A stretch of 25,002 nucleotides of DNA from a virus. The notes below the pieces were generated by a model. That model searched no databases. It worked only from the letters and a program-made list of their open reading frames with translations, and was not told the origin of the DNA. The first letter of the stretch is position 1, and each line of letters starts with the position of its first letter. Location: the IMG/VR virus record IMGVR_UViG_3300037088_000715, positions 1 to 25,002 of that record; one strand, given 5' to 3'. The position numbers and the translations under genes are program-made. Shown in pieces: positions 1 through 22,180 of the stretch.

Positions 1-197
1 ACATACTGGTTATTGCCGGCGGTGTCTGTGTAGGGCATTCCGTACTCTGGCCACGCGCAGGTTCCGCCCGGCGCGCCTGATCCGGTAGCCGCCGGCCAGT
101 TGATCTGGCTTGTGGGGTTGATCTGCGCGCGCGCCATCGCCGCCAGCAGCCCCAGCGCCGTTAATCCGGCAATCCTAACTAACGATGCACAACGCAT
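1..197 (-). CDS. Secreted tail-tip/fibre-like protein, N-terminal fragment (runs off the left edge)
   Basis: Reverse-strand reading from the ATG at 197 is open to the window edge (65 codons seen). A strong ribosome site (GGAGACAGG) lies just upstream. Residues 1-24 form a textbook signal peptide: Arg at positions 2 and 8, a Leu/Ala-rich core, and an Ala-Arg-Ala cleavage site before QINP. The mature start is polar and rich in Gly, Pro, Trp and Tyr (INWPAATGSGAPGGTCAWPEYG), like surface or fibre proteins. It overlaps the end of the preceding gene by 23 bases, so it is probably co-transcribed as the last visible gene of the late operon. A signal peptide is unexpected for a virion protein assembled in the cytoplasm. 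It could instead be a secreted phage-encoded cell-surface protein. The product is not identified. Confidence 0.6.
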   Translation of the reverse strand, partial: MRCASLVRIAGLTALGLLAAMARAQINPTSQINWPAATGSGAPGGTCAWPEYGMPYTDTAGNNQY

Positions 198-15432: not shown

Positions 15433-16653
15433 TTAGGTGGTTTGCGGCACGGCGCGCGCAATCCGCGCGAGGCTGGTGTTGTTCGGGCTGGGCCCGATGC
15501 CGCTGATCATGTTGTAGCTGGTTCCGGCCGCGATCACTCCCGCGCCGTCATAGGCCGAGCGCGCATACTCGCCCGCCCACAGGTCGAGGTTTTCCCACTT
15601 CATGCCCGGATTGGTGTGGCGCGCGCTTTCGAGCGTCACCCGGATCATGGCGTCCTCTCCGGCCAGGTAGGTCGAATACGCCGTCAGGCTCGATCCCTGC
15701 CAACTGGCGCTGCTGGTGCAGTTGGTCGATGGGAACCAGTCGCCGCCGAACAGCCGCAGAATGCCCACCGCCGTCTCGCCTTCGTCCTCGTCGGACAGCT
15801 CTTCCAGCTTGGTCTGGCCTTCGCCGGTATGCTTCAGGATGTCCACGATGGAGTTGTTGGTGTTGTCGAGCGCCGTCAGGTCGCCGATGAATGCGGGCAG
15901 GATCTTCCCGATAAACCGTCCCGCCTGCGGCATCGGCCGTACCTTGGCCTGCAAGAGCGACGCCGGCATCTGCTCGATGATCTGTTTGGTGAAGGCATAG
16001 AGCGGCCCTACCGTCGAATCCTGGTTGTTGGTGTTCGCGTCCAGCGTGCCCAGGTAATCGAAGTTGGTCATGATCAGGTCGTCGTAGGTCTGGCCCAGCA
16101 TGTAGGCCAGCATCTTCCGATAGTTCATCAAGTCGTCTGAAATCGATGTCATGAACGTGAAATCCGAAAAGTTCAGGTAGTTGGCCCATTGTCCCAGCAC
16201 GATGTCGCGGAAGTTGCAGCTAACCGAGACCGGCGATCCAATGGTCCCTTGCGTTTGTTGCACCAGATCCGGCCCGACGGGCGACAGCATGAAGTTGCGG
16301 AAAGACATACCGCTCTTCACCGGCTGCGTCATCGGCGTGCACATCCTGAACATGAAGAGGTTCGCCGCCAGCCACTTCATAAAAGCTTTGTTGTAGTGCA
16401 CCGTCAACGATGCCTGCGGCATGTTGCCGGTCTGCATTGAGGCTGGACTGGGCCCATCGCCCAGCACGCCGCCGCGCGCCAGTATGCTGGCTCCCGCAAA
16501 AAATTGATCGGCATAGCCGTAGCAGGTCAGCGTCAAAACCAGCAGGATCCAGCCCAGGCCCACGATTGTCCATTCCACGGGTTTCAGCACAAAGCGAATC
16601 AGCATCTCGCTCGCTCTGCTCACGCCATTCAAATCCATCGTCCTCCGCTTCAT
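15433..16653 (-). CDS. Major capsid protein (N4 gp56-like) with N-terminal hydrophobic segment
   Basis: 406 residues from the ATG at 16653, preceded by GGGGAG at 6 bases; the longer open frame only overlaps the preceding gene. From residue about 80 the protein reads like N4-gp56-type HK97-fold capsid proteins: VHYNKAFMKWLAANLFMF, a beta stretch (GSPVSVSCNFRDIVLGQWANYLNFSDFTF), helix NYRKMLAYMLGQTYDDLIM, the P-domain-like RFIGKILPAFIGDLTAL...KLEELSDEDEGETAVGILRLFGGDWFPSTN, and the final AGEDAMIRVTLES. Residues 26-48 are a strongly hydrophobic helix (VEWTIVGLGWILLVLTLT) preceded by Lys and Arg and followed by CYGYA-DQ, like a signal anchor. The ATGs at residues 73 and 78 lack ribosome sites. 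Gene order portal, scaffold candidate, capsid supports the call. Confidence 0.75.
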   Translation of the reverse strand: MKRRTMDLNGVSRASEMLIRFVLKPVEWTIVGLGWILLVLTLTCYGYADQFFAGASILARGGVLGDGPSPASMQTGNMPQASLTVHYNKAFMKWLAANLFMFRMCTPMTQPVKSGMSFRNFMLSPVGPDLVQQTQGTIGSPVSVSCNFRDIVLGQWANYLNFSDFTFMTSISDDLMNYRKMLAYMLGQTYDDLIMTNFDYLGTLDANTNNQDSTVGPLYAFTKQIIEQMPASLLQAKVRPMPQAGRFIGKILPAFIGDLTALDNTNNSIVDILKHTGEGQTKLEELSDEDEGETAVGILRLFGGDWFPSTNCTSSASWQGSSLTAYSTYLAGEDAMIRVTLESARHTNPGMKWENLDLWAGEYARSAYDGAGVIAAGTSYNMISGIGPSPNNTSLARIARAVPQTT

Positions 16654-16673
16654 CTCATTCTCCCCATCTGGCC

Positions 16674-17510
16674 TCAGGCGGTCGCCTGTTGCCGTGCGCC
16701 ATACCAGAAGTCGCAGGCTTCCCGGTAGTCCTTCCCTGCCTGTCCGCGATCTTTGAGCAGGCGGTCGGTCTCCTTGGTAGTCAGCTTTTCCAGTTGCGCC
16801 CGTGTGTACTTCGGCTGCCAAGTTGCCTGTTGCGTCGCATTCAGCCGCGTTGCCCGATGGCTGGTCGCAAAGGCGCCTTCTTGCCTCGACGGTACGGGAG
16901 CCGGCGTCTCCGCCGGTGGCACTGCGGGGGTTGATGTGCTGTTCTCAAGGGCCGCCTCCTCCTGTGTCAACAGGTAGCCGCCCGCCGTCAATTCCTGGTA
17001 GACCATCTCCAGCGTCTCCGTTCGAATGGCCTCAAGCCGTCCTCCCACGCGCATCCGTGCGTTGTCGGTAATCAGCTTTTTGTTGTAGAGCGAATCCTTC
17101 AGCTCCGGATGCGTCGCCGCCCAGGCTGTCGCGGTACGCTCGAAGGCTTGCGCTTTTTCGTGTTCCAGCGCGCGATGGCTCCGGGCCAACCGCTCGCTGG
17201 CTTCCGCGGCCCGTTTCGGGTCCTGCAGCGCCTCGGTCAGTTGCAGCGTTTCGTCGGCGGTCAGGATGTCAGGACTCCGCGCCGGCACAAGTTGCGGGCC
17301 TGCGGCGGTTTTTCCGGCGCCCTTCTTCAGTTCGCTGATCAGCGACTGGCCAAGCATACTGGTGCGCTCGATCTTGCTCAGCACGGCCTCCTGGTCCTTG
17401 CCGTAGACGCGAATGGGCGCGCTGCCATCTTCTGGGTCCAGCACGCGGCACACGCGGCCGTCCGTGATCTTGGTTCCATCCGGCTTCTCGTCCGTCCAGT
17501 AAGCTTTCAT
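16674..17510 (-). CDS. Putative scaffolding protein
   Basis: 278 residues with AGGA 5 bases before the ATG. A short beta-rich start (KAYWTDEKPDGTKITDGRVCRVLD) leads to long charged helices (about residues 85-165, e.g. RAAEASERLARSHRALEHEKAQAFER). A Pro-rich linker lies around residues 190-205. The C-terminus is basic and helical (ARQQATA). Position between portal and capsid, high helix content and lack of enzymatic motifs match phage scaffolds, though sequence similarity cannot be claimed by eye. It stops 20 bases before the capsid start codon. Confidence 0.5.
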   Translation of the reverse strand: MKAYWTDEKPDGTKITDGRVCRVLDPEDGSAPIRVYGKDQEAVLSKIERTSMLGQSLISELKKGAGKTAAGPQLVPARSPDILTADETLQLTEALQDPKRAAEASERLARSHRALEHEKAQAFERTATAWAATHPELKDSLYNKKLITDNARMRVGGRLEAIRTETLEMVYQELTAGGYLLTQEEAALENSTSTPAVPPAETPAPVPSRQEGAFATSHRATRLNATQQATWQPKYTRAQLEKLTTKETDRLLKDRGQAGKDYREACDFWYGARQQATA

Positions 17511-20114: not shown

Positions 20115-20514
20115 CGTTTCTCTCGAAGATCACAATCATAGATGGAAAGGGAGCAGCATGGACAGCTTCGCCAAATTTAAGGCGACCACGTATGAATCTA
20201 ATCTCTTTCGCGTGAGGCAGAACGACTTCATGAAACCAATTGACATCCGTGCGCGCTGGCAATAGAAAAACTGCTATCTCCGCTTCGAATCCGCGCTCCA
20301 GCCAATCGCGAATTCCAGGGCCGTAGGGTGGATTGCAAAAAACTCTTTGCTGCGCCCAAGAGGAAAATAGACGTGCCAACCCATCTTCATTACCACCAAG
20401 CGGGCACGGATCGTAAGTAAAATCGAATTCTTCATTCAATTTTTTGTAAAGAGCGCCTGGCGTTCGCCATTCAACGCTTTCGGATTTGAAGTGGACTGCC
20501 AATGCGCTAGCCAT
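20107..20514 (-). CDS. Phage-type DNA N6-adenine methyltransferase
   Basis: 135 residues with GGGAGGG before the ATG. The sequence shows the phage Dam family pattern: VEWRTPGALYKKLNEEFDFTYDPCP (residues 14-38), the catalytic CNPPYG motif (residues 60-65), and LLPARTDVNWFHEVVLPHAKEIRFIRGRLKF toward the end. It is expected to transfer a methyl group from S-adenosylmethionine to adenine in DNA, protecting phage DNA from host restriction or marking it for packaging. It overlaps the terminase by 8 bases and the portal by 8 bases, so all three are probably translated together. The target sequence is unknown. Confidence 0.8.
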   Translation of the reverse strand: MASALAVHFKSESVEWRTPGALYKKLNEEFDFTYDPCPLGGNEDGLARLFSSWAQQRVFCNPPYGPGIRDWLERGFEAEIAVFLLPARTDVNWFHEVVLPHAKEIRFIRGRLKFGEAVHAAPFPSMIVIFERNDG

Positions 20515-22180
20515 CGAGCCCTCCCGGCAGTGGCGAAACTCCGGCCTGATTCTTTACCGCTTCCATCGCCAGCACGGTTGCCTCGGCTTTCTGGCGTTGA
20601 TCCTCGTCGATCGCGTTCATGCCCATCTGCCCGAAAATTTGGTTGAACTGCGCATCCTCGCGCCGTCTCCGCTGGTATTCGATCTCTTCCTCAGTCATGG
20701 CGGCGCGCATCAGGCTCACCGGCACGCGGTCGAGCGCCTGGCTTACGCAGTCCACAATACCATTCTCCTGCACCAGTCCGAAGTGGATAAATTGTTTGCG
20801 GCACTCTGCCGCGTGTTTCATGTTGGTCGCAAACAGCAGCCGTCCCGCCTTCATCATCGGCTCGGCCTGCTTCATGCGCGCCGCCCGCCGATTGTCGTTC
20901 TCCTCGAAATCCATCCAACGGATACGCACGCCGTAATTCTTCCTAAGCGCCTCGTTGCGCACATCGGCAGCCACAAACTCTACCCCCGGCGCCCCTTCGA
21001 TTACCACCGCCTCGGCTTCGTGCTCGCGCATGGCCTTCACAATTTTCACTGCTCGTCCGGTGGGCGTATAGATGCCCTTCCAGGCGTCGATCACAAATAC
21101 TTTGTCGCCGGCCACGCGGATCATCGCGCCTTCATCGTAAGTGTCCATGAATGGCTTGCCGCCATACGGCGGCCGCCAATATAGCATCGTCTCGCCAATC
21201 GGAGGCACGCGCTCCGCGTCAATCTGGGCTCCGTTGTAAGCCGCCTCGGTGAATGTGGCTACGGCGCCGCCCTGAGGATCGTTTTGCTGCTGGCACATAA
21301 AGGTTTCATAGTTGGCCAGAAACTTGTCGCGCAGGTTTTCATAGGTCAACTCCGGCAACTCGGCAAAGTGCAGCGTCATGTCTTCGCGCTCGGGGAATTC
21401 TCCCGGCATCAGCCGTTCTCCGTTTTTGAGCGTCAACGAACTGCGCACCAGCACCTTCCACTTCGCGAAGTTCATGGTGTTCAACTCATGCCCGTACATA
21501 TCAAACGGATGATAGCGGGTGCCGCGGATATTCAGGAATCCGCCTGTGCGCAACAGGTTTTTGTTGGTGTCGTGCACGTCGATCAGCCGCTGGCGGCTTT
21601 CGTCCGGCGCGCTAATGCCGCTATTGAGCGCGTCGCACACGTCGTCCGCGTTGATCAAAAACGGGTGCCATCCGGATTGTGCCGTCTTGGGGCTCGTGTA
21701 TCCCACTGTGGGATCGATGCTCGGCTCCATTCTCAGATCGCTGTCGTAACAGTCTTCGCGCTTGCGCTTGGTGAATTGGACCTCTGGAAACAGCGCCCTC
21801 AGCCAGCCGCGGTTGAAGTGCTGTATTGTTACTTCCATCATGCTCGCTGCCAGCGGCTGAGTTGCCGTTTCATAGAGCAGCGTCAAGCGGCTGCTCCATG
21901 CCGCCAGCCATTGTGCTGTATCTACGAGGCCCAGCGTGGTCTTGAAGGTATGGCGCGGGTCCAGGTGCATCCGGAATTTGATCGGATCCTGATCCTCGAT
22001 CGGCACATTGGGATTTTTGGGAAAGAATAGATCGACTGCGGGCTGGTGCAACTTGCGATTGAACTGCGTATAGCCCATGACTTCGGCGGCGAAAAAGTGA
22101 TCGCTCAGGAAACGATGCCGCATTTCCTCAAGGTATGCGGCATCGTTGGCAATCCTGTCCGTATCGAGGATGGCGCTCAC
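20507..22180 (-). CDS. Terminase large subunit
   Basis: 557 residues from a GTG at 22180 with GGGAG 6 bases upstream. The packaging ATPase domain shows a Walker A-like DPRHTFKTT (residues 74-82), a Walker B-like FLINADD (residues 174-180) and a coupling region GTRYHPFDMYGHEL near residue 220. The nuclease half contains VFVIDAWKG (about residue 360) and AVVIEGAPG (about residue 385), giving acidic residues of an RNase H-like fold. The adjacent methyltransferase and portal confirm a packaging module. No small terminase subunit is evident; one of the small neighbours, such as the 100-residue gene upstream or the winged-helix protein, might fill that role. Confidence 0.85.
   Translation of the reverse strand: MSAILDTDRIANDAAYLEEMRHRFLSDHFFAAEVMGYTQFNRKLHQPAVDLFFPKNPNVPIEDQDPIKFRMHLDPRHTFKTTLGLVDTAQWLAAWSSRLTLLYETATQPLAASMMEVTIQHFNRGWLRALFPEVQFTKRKREDCYDSDLRMEPSIDPTVGYTSPKTAQSGWHPFLINADDVCDALNSGISAPDESRQRLIDVHDTNKNLLRTGGFLNIRGTRYHPFDMYGHELNTMNFAKWKVLVRSSLTLKNGERLMPGEFPEREDMTLHFAELPELTYENLRDKFLANYETFMCQQQNDPQGGAVATFTEAAYNGAQIDAERVPPIGETMLYWRPPYGGKPFMDTYDEGAMIRVAGDKVFVIDAWKGIYTPTGRAVKIVKAMREHEAEAVVIEGAPGVEFVAADVRNEALRKNYGVRIRWMDFEENDNRRAARMKQAEPMMKAGRLLFATNMKHAAECRKQFIHFGLVQENGIVDCVSQALDRVPVSLMRAAMTEEEIEYQRRRREDAQFNQIFGQMGMNAIDEDQRQKAEATVLAMEAVKNQAGVSPLPGGLDG

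Follow-up and report, generated by a model that had tools for sequence, protein, structure and literature searches.

No viral building block is commoner than the HK97-fold coat protein, and the assembly of heads from it is modelled as a soluble, scaffold-driven process. The locus described here raises the question of why a coat protein of this kind should begin with what looks like a membrane anchor. It lies in record IMGVR_UViG_3300037088_000715, positions 1-25,002 of which (the window, a ~25 kb IMG/VR contig that is the entire assembly) were analysed. A preliminary description of this DNA had proposed that the coat protein carries a coding N-terminal extension served by a ribosome site, and that such an extension is unusual for an HK97-type coat protein. 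Both proposals are borne out by the data presented below: the coat leader is genuine, selected and membrane-anchor-like, and it is novel as a variant of a known coat protein.

The coat gene and its head module

The coat frame, on the minus strand, comprises 406 codons and is uninterrupted between the ATG at 16653 and the stop at 15433 (Table 1). Profile searches returned no direct Pfam, PHROG or TIGR04387 match for the window protein and no significant match among solved structures, and a pattern scan found no homologues in bacterial genomes. Four relatives (L036, L047, L048 and Tunturi_3) match PHROG 1357, a major head protein family (E 1e-13 to 2e-6), as well as TIGR04387, at scores that stay under the curated cut-off (E 5e-10 to 4e-7; 5e-10, the best, on L047 and 1.7e-9 on Tunturi_3). 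The TIGR04387 model begins downstream of the leader. When the AlphaFold model of the window protein was submitted to Foldseek, it matched the capsid chains of Pan3, GP4, A4 and N4 (E 1e-11 to 2e-9), all of the HK97 fold, and, in BFVD, an entry named N4-gp56.

The gene sits near the portal and terminase genes, as an N4-gp56 major capsid gene should, in a head module of ordinary order: terminase, SU10-like portal, small gene, scaffold-like gene, coat. The 278-aa product encoded directly upstream of the coat gene has no family match, and its role as a scaffold is inferred from position; it has no N-terminal hydrophobic segment, and its homologues occur in both leader-bearing and leaderless relatives. 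The window protein is a known kind of coat protein (HK97 fold, linked to N4-gp56 through its relatives) bearing an added leader.

Table 1. Features of the coat gene, the head module and the truncated tail-spike-like gene in the window
Feature	Position	Strand	Basis
Tail-spike-like gene, 5' end, with Sec-type signal peptide (..LLAAMARA/QINPTSQINWP)	3..197	-	Open-ended ORF cut by the window end; homologous N-termini
Gene of the 406-aa major capsid protein (N4-gp56 type, HK97 fold) with leader	15433..16653	-	Open frame, family matches of relatives, Foldseek
Coat-protein core, residues 66-406 (disordered linker to ~84, then HK97 fold)	15436..16458	-	AlphaFold, Foldseek
Leader, residues 1-65, upstream of the ordinary coat N-terminus	16459..16653	-	Start of leaderless homologues, dN/dS, AlphaFold helix 8-60
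Small-residue-rich, helix-predicted stretch, residues 49-61, with A55xxxA59	16471..16509	-	
Uncharged hydrophobic segment, residues 28-48 (WTIVGLGWILLVLTLTCYGYA), TM-grade	16510..16572	-	KD19 mean 1.84
Shine-Dalgarno-like GGGGAG	16660..16665	-	Sequence; 6 bases 5' of ATG 16653
Scaffold-like gene, 278 aa, directly upstream of the coat gene	16674..17510	-	Position and homologues
Portal protein, 734 aa	17910..20114	-	PF23899 SU10_portal, E 6.8e-6, under curated cut-off
Terminase large subunit	20507..22180	-	phrog_38, E 3.5e-20

Architecture of the leader

The window leader consists of a Lys/Arg-rich N-terminus, about 21 uncharged hydrophobic residues and an Ala-rich helix. By simple hydropathy, its best 19-residue Kyte-Doolittle mean is 1.84, in a set of 49 distinct leaders that extends from 1.57 to 2.49. 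By the same measure, the window's hydrophobic segment, at least ~19 residues long with charged flanks (the N flank basic), has the make-up of a signal anchor or transmembrane (TM) segment, and all 36 distinct leaders of the window's clade have retained this hydrophobicity. The hydrophobic stretch and basic flank of the preliminary description stand (uncharged residues 28-48, N flank basic). Its reading of the ending as signal-peptidase-like is weak, no site being conserved across the clades.

AlphaFold models were obtained for the window's clade (23 related sequences; mean pLDDT 70.5, pTM 0.59) and for a member of the sister clade, L116. Both consist of a single leader helix (residues 8-60 and 7-50, respectively), a low-confidence or disordered linker and then the HK97 fold. 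Small residues recur along this helix. Counted from the boundary with the core, position -7 is Ala in 31 of the 36 window-clade leaders and position -11 is small in 33 of them, and further small residues are conserved at -23, -25 and -27, within the hydrophobic part. This spacing is suited to helix packing. The N-side flank is more positive than the C-side flank in 37 of the 49 leaders when 15-residue flanks are compared; when the first 35 core residues are included, the N side is the more positive in 32 cases, versus 10.

The boundary of the leader and its start codon

Where the leader ends is indicated by relatives that lack it. Their coat proteins start at the position of D66 of the window protein, so that the extension measures 65 residues and not about 78 as first estimated. 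Just past this point, G67, S69 and P70 are nearly invariant in leader-bearing and leaderless coat proteins alike: Tunturi_3, L098, L105-L111 and the rest of the Tunturi clade start with M-(A)GYSP.. or similar where leader-bearing proteins read ..DGPSP... The coat frame of Tunturi_3 is closed by a stop just upstream of its start. In L102 and L103, the ATG is separated from the Ala codon of AGYSP by 79-82 leader codons; their near relative L106, which has no leader, differs by a clean insertion or deletion directly after the ATG, the 5' untranslated regions (UTRs) being homologous. Since leaderless relatives begin exactly at the 65/66 boundary, the window module comprises 65 residues and the leader is an add-on to a self-sufficient coat protein. 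An inverted repeat of the form GCGTTTCGGATTGAAACGC, which may be an RNA hairpin or a regulator site, is also shared by the coat-gene 5' UTRs of L102, L103 and L106, whether a leader follows or not.

At the other end, the ATG at 16653 is preferred to the one at 16638 because the sequence that precedes M6 (K..RT.DLN) is conserved in L013, L014 and L039, which have Leu in place of M6. The chance fusion of an upstream TM gene was considered as an origin of the leader and rejected: there is no such ORF in the leaderless L106, L119, L126 and L098.

Selection on the leader and its exchange

Pattern scans of IMG/VR yielded relatives ranging from 100% down to ~30% identity, and removal of near-copies left 88 distinct coat cores, including one outgroup from a Paenibacillus phage. 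Alignment of these homologues, a check suggested in the preliminary description, shows the extension to be present in 49 of the 88, including 36/36 in the window's clade, and absent from the remaining 39. The leaders have a median length of 53 aa, 48 of the 49 are preceded by a Shine-Dalgarno-like start site, and a hydrophobic leader is retained in relatives down to ~34% identity. The leader-bearing group is a large set of mostly uncultured soil tailed phages.

Read in frame, the leader has dN/dS values mostly of 0.10-0.5, with values usually above 1 in the other two frames; the ratio is about 1 in two close pairs, where synonymous changes are few. The core evolves more slowly (dN/dS 0.02-0.14). 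When neutral evolution of the window leader down to 45% identity was simulated, the frame stayed open and TM-grade in only 7.7% of runs, in contrast to the 36/36 window-clade members that keep such a leader. As far as sequence comparison can tell, then, the leader is translated, held hydrophobic by selection, and modular.

The distribution of leaders does not follow a single clade. A tree in which the leader-bearing proteins form one clade of single origin is rejected (AU p ~1e-100 for leaders held together), and at least 4 changes are needed, gain and loss being inseparable in a tree without a sure root. L119 and L126, for instance, are leaderless within an otherwise leader-bearing clade. Leaders can also differ far more than the cores to which they are joined: leader dS is 1.11 against a core dS of 0.26 for the pair L081/L085, and 1.47 against 0.29 for L068/L069, while the window and L003 have 88% of the core in common but leaders that can barely be aligned. 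Leaders are swapped between near-identical coats, a pattern that suggests recombination at the very 5' end of this gene.

The presence of the leader tracks a divide in genome size: leaderless Tunturi-type records are mostly 85-99 kb and leader-bearing ones ~20-43 kb, apart from one of 69 kb that has the coat gene at both ends.

Other N-termini, proteases and tail spikes

A survey of the N-termini of 143 genes, each conserved in at least 3 other genomes of a set of nine, found TM-grade N-termini only on coat proteins (5 cases, a minimum since the coat genes of G003 and G006 were displaced by antisense ORFs in simple gene calling). The preliminary description saw no prohead protease, and this is corroborated for the S78 family: Peptidase_S78 (PF04586) has no match in 19 related records, with positive controls. 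Nor was a viral signal peptidase (Peptidase_S26) found in 21 records. Between its small and scaffold-like genes, at a distance of ~1.2-1.3 kb upstream of the coat core, L123 has an additional putative 62-aa ORF with a strong TM segment (KD 2.58).

Classical Sec signal peptides (..AQ/INPxTQIxWP) head the predicted tail spikes that these phages encode farther downstream in the late operon, among them the ORF cut by the left end of the window. Such signals on tail spikes are unexpected, and a literature search on them found nothing on point. Outside the Tunturi clade, 22 of 39 records have the INPxTQIxWP N-terminal domain; inside it, 1 of 11 does. Tunturi_3, which has no coat leader, has no Sec signal on the structural and tail genes examined. 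Yet one trait can occur without the other: G015 and G016, which are leaderless genomes, retain spike signal peptides. The predicted spikes or fibres of G002, G003, G005, G006, G012, G015 and G016 are 343-1185 aa long; some predicted spikes have a pectate-lyase-like YGAKGD motif, and the spike ORFs of G030, G038 and G040 carry the INPxTQIxWP region in several tandem copies near the N-terminus.

A possible role in head assembly at the membrane

Proteins that begin with a basic tail and then a TM-grade helix are the usual substrates of co-translational membrane targeting. From a leader whose translation (by selection), conservation, modularity and predicted helix are documented above, we infer insertion, site of assembly and removal as follows. 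The leader would guide the coat protein, while it is still being made, to the inner membrane of the host, where the bound subunits would be concentrated and a scaffolded prohead would form; a host membrane protease would then clip the leader off near residue 61-66, or it would be kept as a lining of the head. We give this scheme about an even chance of being right. Exchange of leaders between near-identical coats would fit a tuning to different host membranes or targeting machineries. By analogy, leader phages might resemble T4, whose proheads can start on the inner membrane through the gp20 portal, together with gp40 and YidC (PMC9958956).

The weak point of membrane assembly is topology. According to the positive-inside rule, the more positive flank of a TM segment is cytoplasmic, and the N-side-positive flanks of 37/49 leaders therefore predict a cytoplasmic N-terminus; a helix spanning the membrane fully would then put the coat domain in the periplasm, in conflict with a cytoplasmic portal, scaffold and terminase. 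A helix lying in the membrane or dipping into it, or a reversed helix, would avoid this. The lack of a cleavage motif conserved across clades and of a detectable viral signal peptidase also counts against membrane assembly, and the existence of leader-free relatives means that the leader is not essential for making heads. A bolder version, in which the HK97-fold coat protein is itself a membrane protein, heads are templated on the inner membrane or enclose part of it, and the spike Sec signals belong to the same wider use of export signals on virion proteins, appears doubtful to us.

The main rival to membrane assembly, raised alongside it in the preliminary description, is that the leader acts like a delta domain, its helices never entering a membrane but bundling under the capsomers inside the shell, where they would aid assembly or scaffold binding before being shed or kept. 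Delta domains occupy the same end of HK97-type coat proteins; the conserved small-xxx-small positions (-27/-23 and -11/-7) and the prediction of one long helix on a flexible linker speak for such a bundle, and a protein-only bundle would likewise avoid the topology conflict. However, the leader is TM-grade in hydrophobicity, more so than soluble coiled coils are expected to be, and its N-tail is basic; phages with leaders and phages lacking them alike have a separate scaffold-like gene; and the S78 protease is missing from the 19 records. We regard an internal bundle as possible, though well short of probable.

Alternatively, the leader might be a cleavable Sec signal, by which some or all of the coat protein would be sent to the periplasm, with the host's signal peptidase making the cut. 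This is unlikely, even if the positive-inside bias of the flanks, the Sec signals that the same phages place on their spikes and the resemblance of the L099 and L102/L103 leaders to classical signal peptides speak for it. A-x-[AGS], frequent before the boundary in the window's clade (at -7/-5), is not conserved in the sister clade, which has Q/E at -5, and no signal peptidase I site (small residues at -3/-1 shortly after the h-region) is common to the clades. Moreover, unlike the spike signals of the same genomes, the leaders have a long hydrophobic stretch whose end is 12-20 residues away from the candidate sites downstream, and the portal and scaffold-like proteins have no export signal.

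That the leader is released as a peptide with a second function, for example a holin-like timing of lysis coupled to coat production, is very improbable: a basic, single-TM peptide of ~50 aa would indeed be made at coat-protein copy number, and the leader does evolve fast and is exchanged, but leader-bearing genomes have endolysin-like genes with adjoining TM proteins elsewhere (e.g. G012_17 to G012_19). Finally, a mis-called start, with an untranslated extension and a coat protein beginning at one of the window's Met codons 73 or 78, is rejected with near certainty, given purifying selection in frame across the leader, conserved residues upstream of both codons, the absence of a Shine-Dalgarno sequence at either, and homologues that do not consistently start there (Met73 is often Gln and Met78 sometimes absent within the clade).

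Virus heads are thought to assemble free in the cytoplasm; a membrane-anchor-like leader is unexpected on their coat protein, and it suggests that these heads may form on the host membrane. A TM-grade leader that is under selection, exchangeable and cleanly lost in sister phages constitutes a natural experiment on a possible role of membranes in head assembly, and the leader-bearing/leaderless pairs (L102/L103 versus L106; L123 versus L119/L126) make the membrane question directly testable.

Comparison with known systems

No earlier description of signal sequences on HK97-type coat proteins was found in a literature search that left most subscription journals outside its reach. The nearest isolate is Tunturi_3 (PP885686), a podovirus of Tunturiibacter (PMC11924767), with 31% identity over window residues 67-388. 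The window shares with it, as with other N4-gp56 relatives, the HK97 fold and the head-gene order terminase, portal, small gene, scaffold-like gene, coat; unlike the window protein, its coat protein has no leader, its first residue aligning with position 66.

Like the delta domain of HK97 and the pro-sequence of T4 gp23, the leader is an extra N-terminal module of a coat protein that is possibly removed. It differs from both in its TM-grade helix, and in that the 19 related records have no Peptidase_S78. The pVIII procoat of filamentous phages offers a functional parallel, since this major coat protein, too, is synthesised with a signal and enters the inner membrane before virions are assembled; its fold and virion are unrelated, the window coat being a 340-residue HK97-fold domain. 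The idea of prohead assembly on the inner membrane has a parallel in T4 gp20 and gp40 (PMC9958956); there, the portal is attached via a chaperone, whereas in the leader phages every copy of the coat protein would carry its own anchor.
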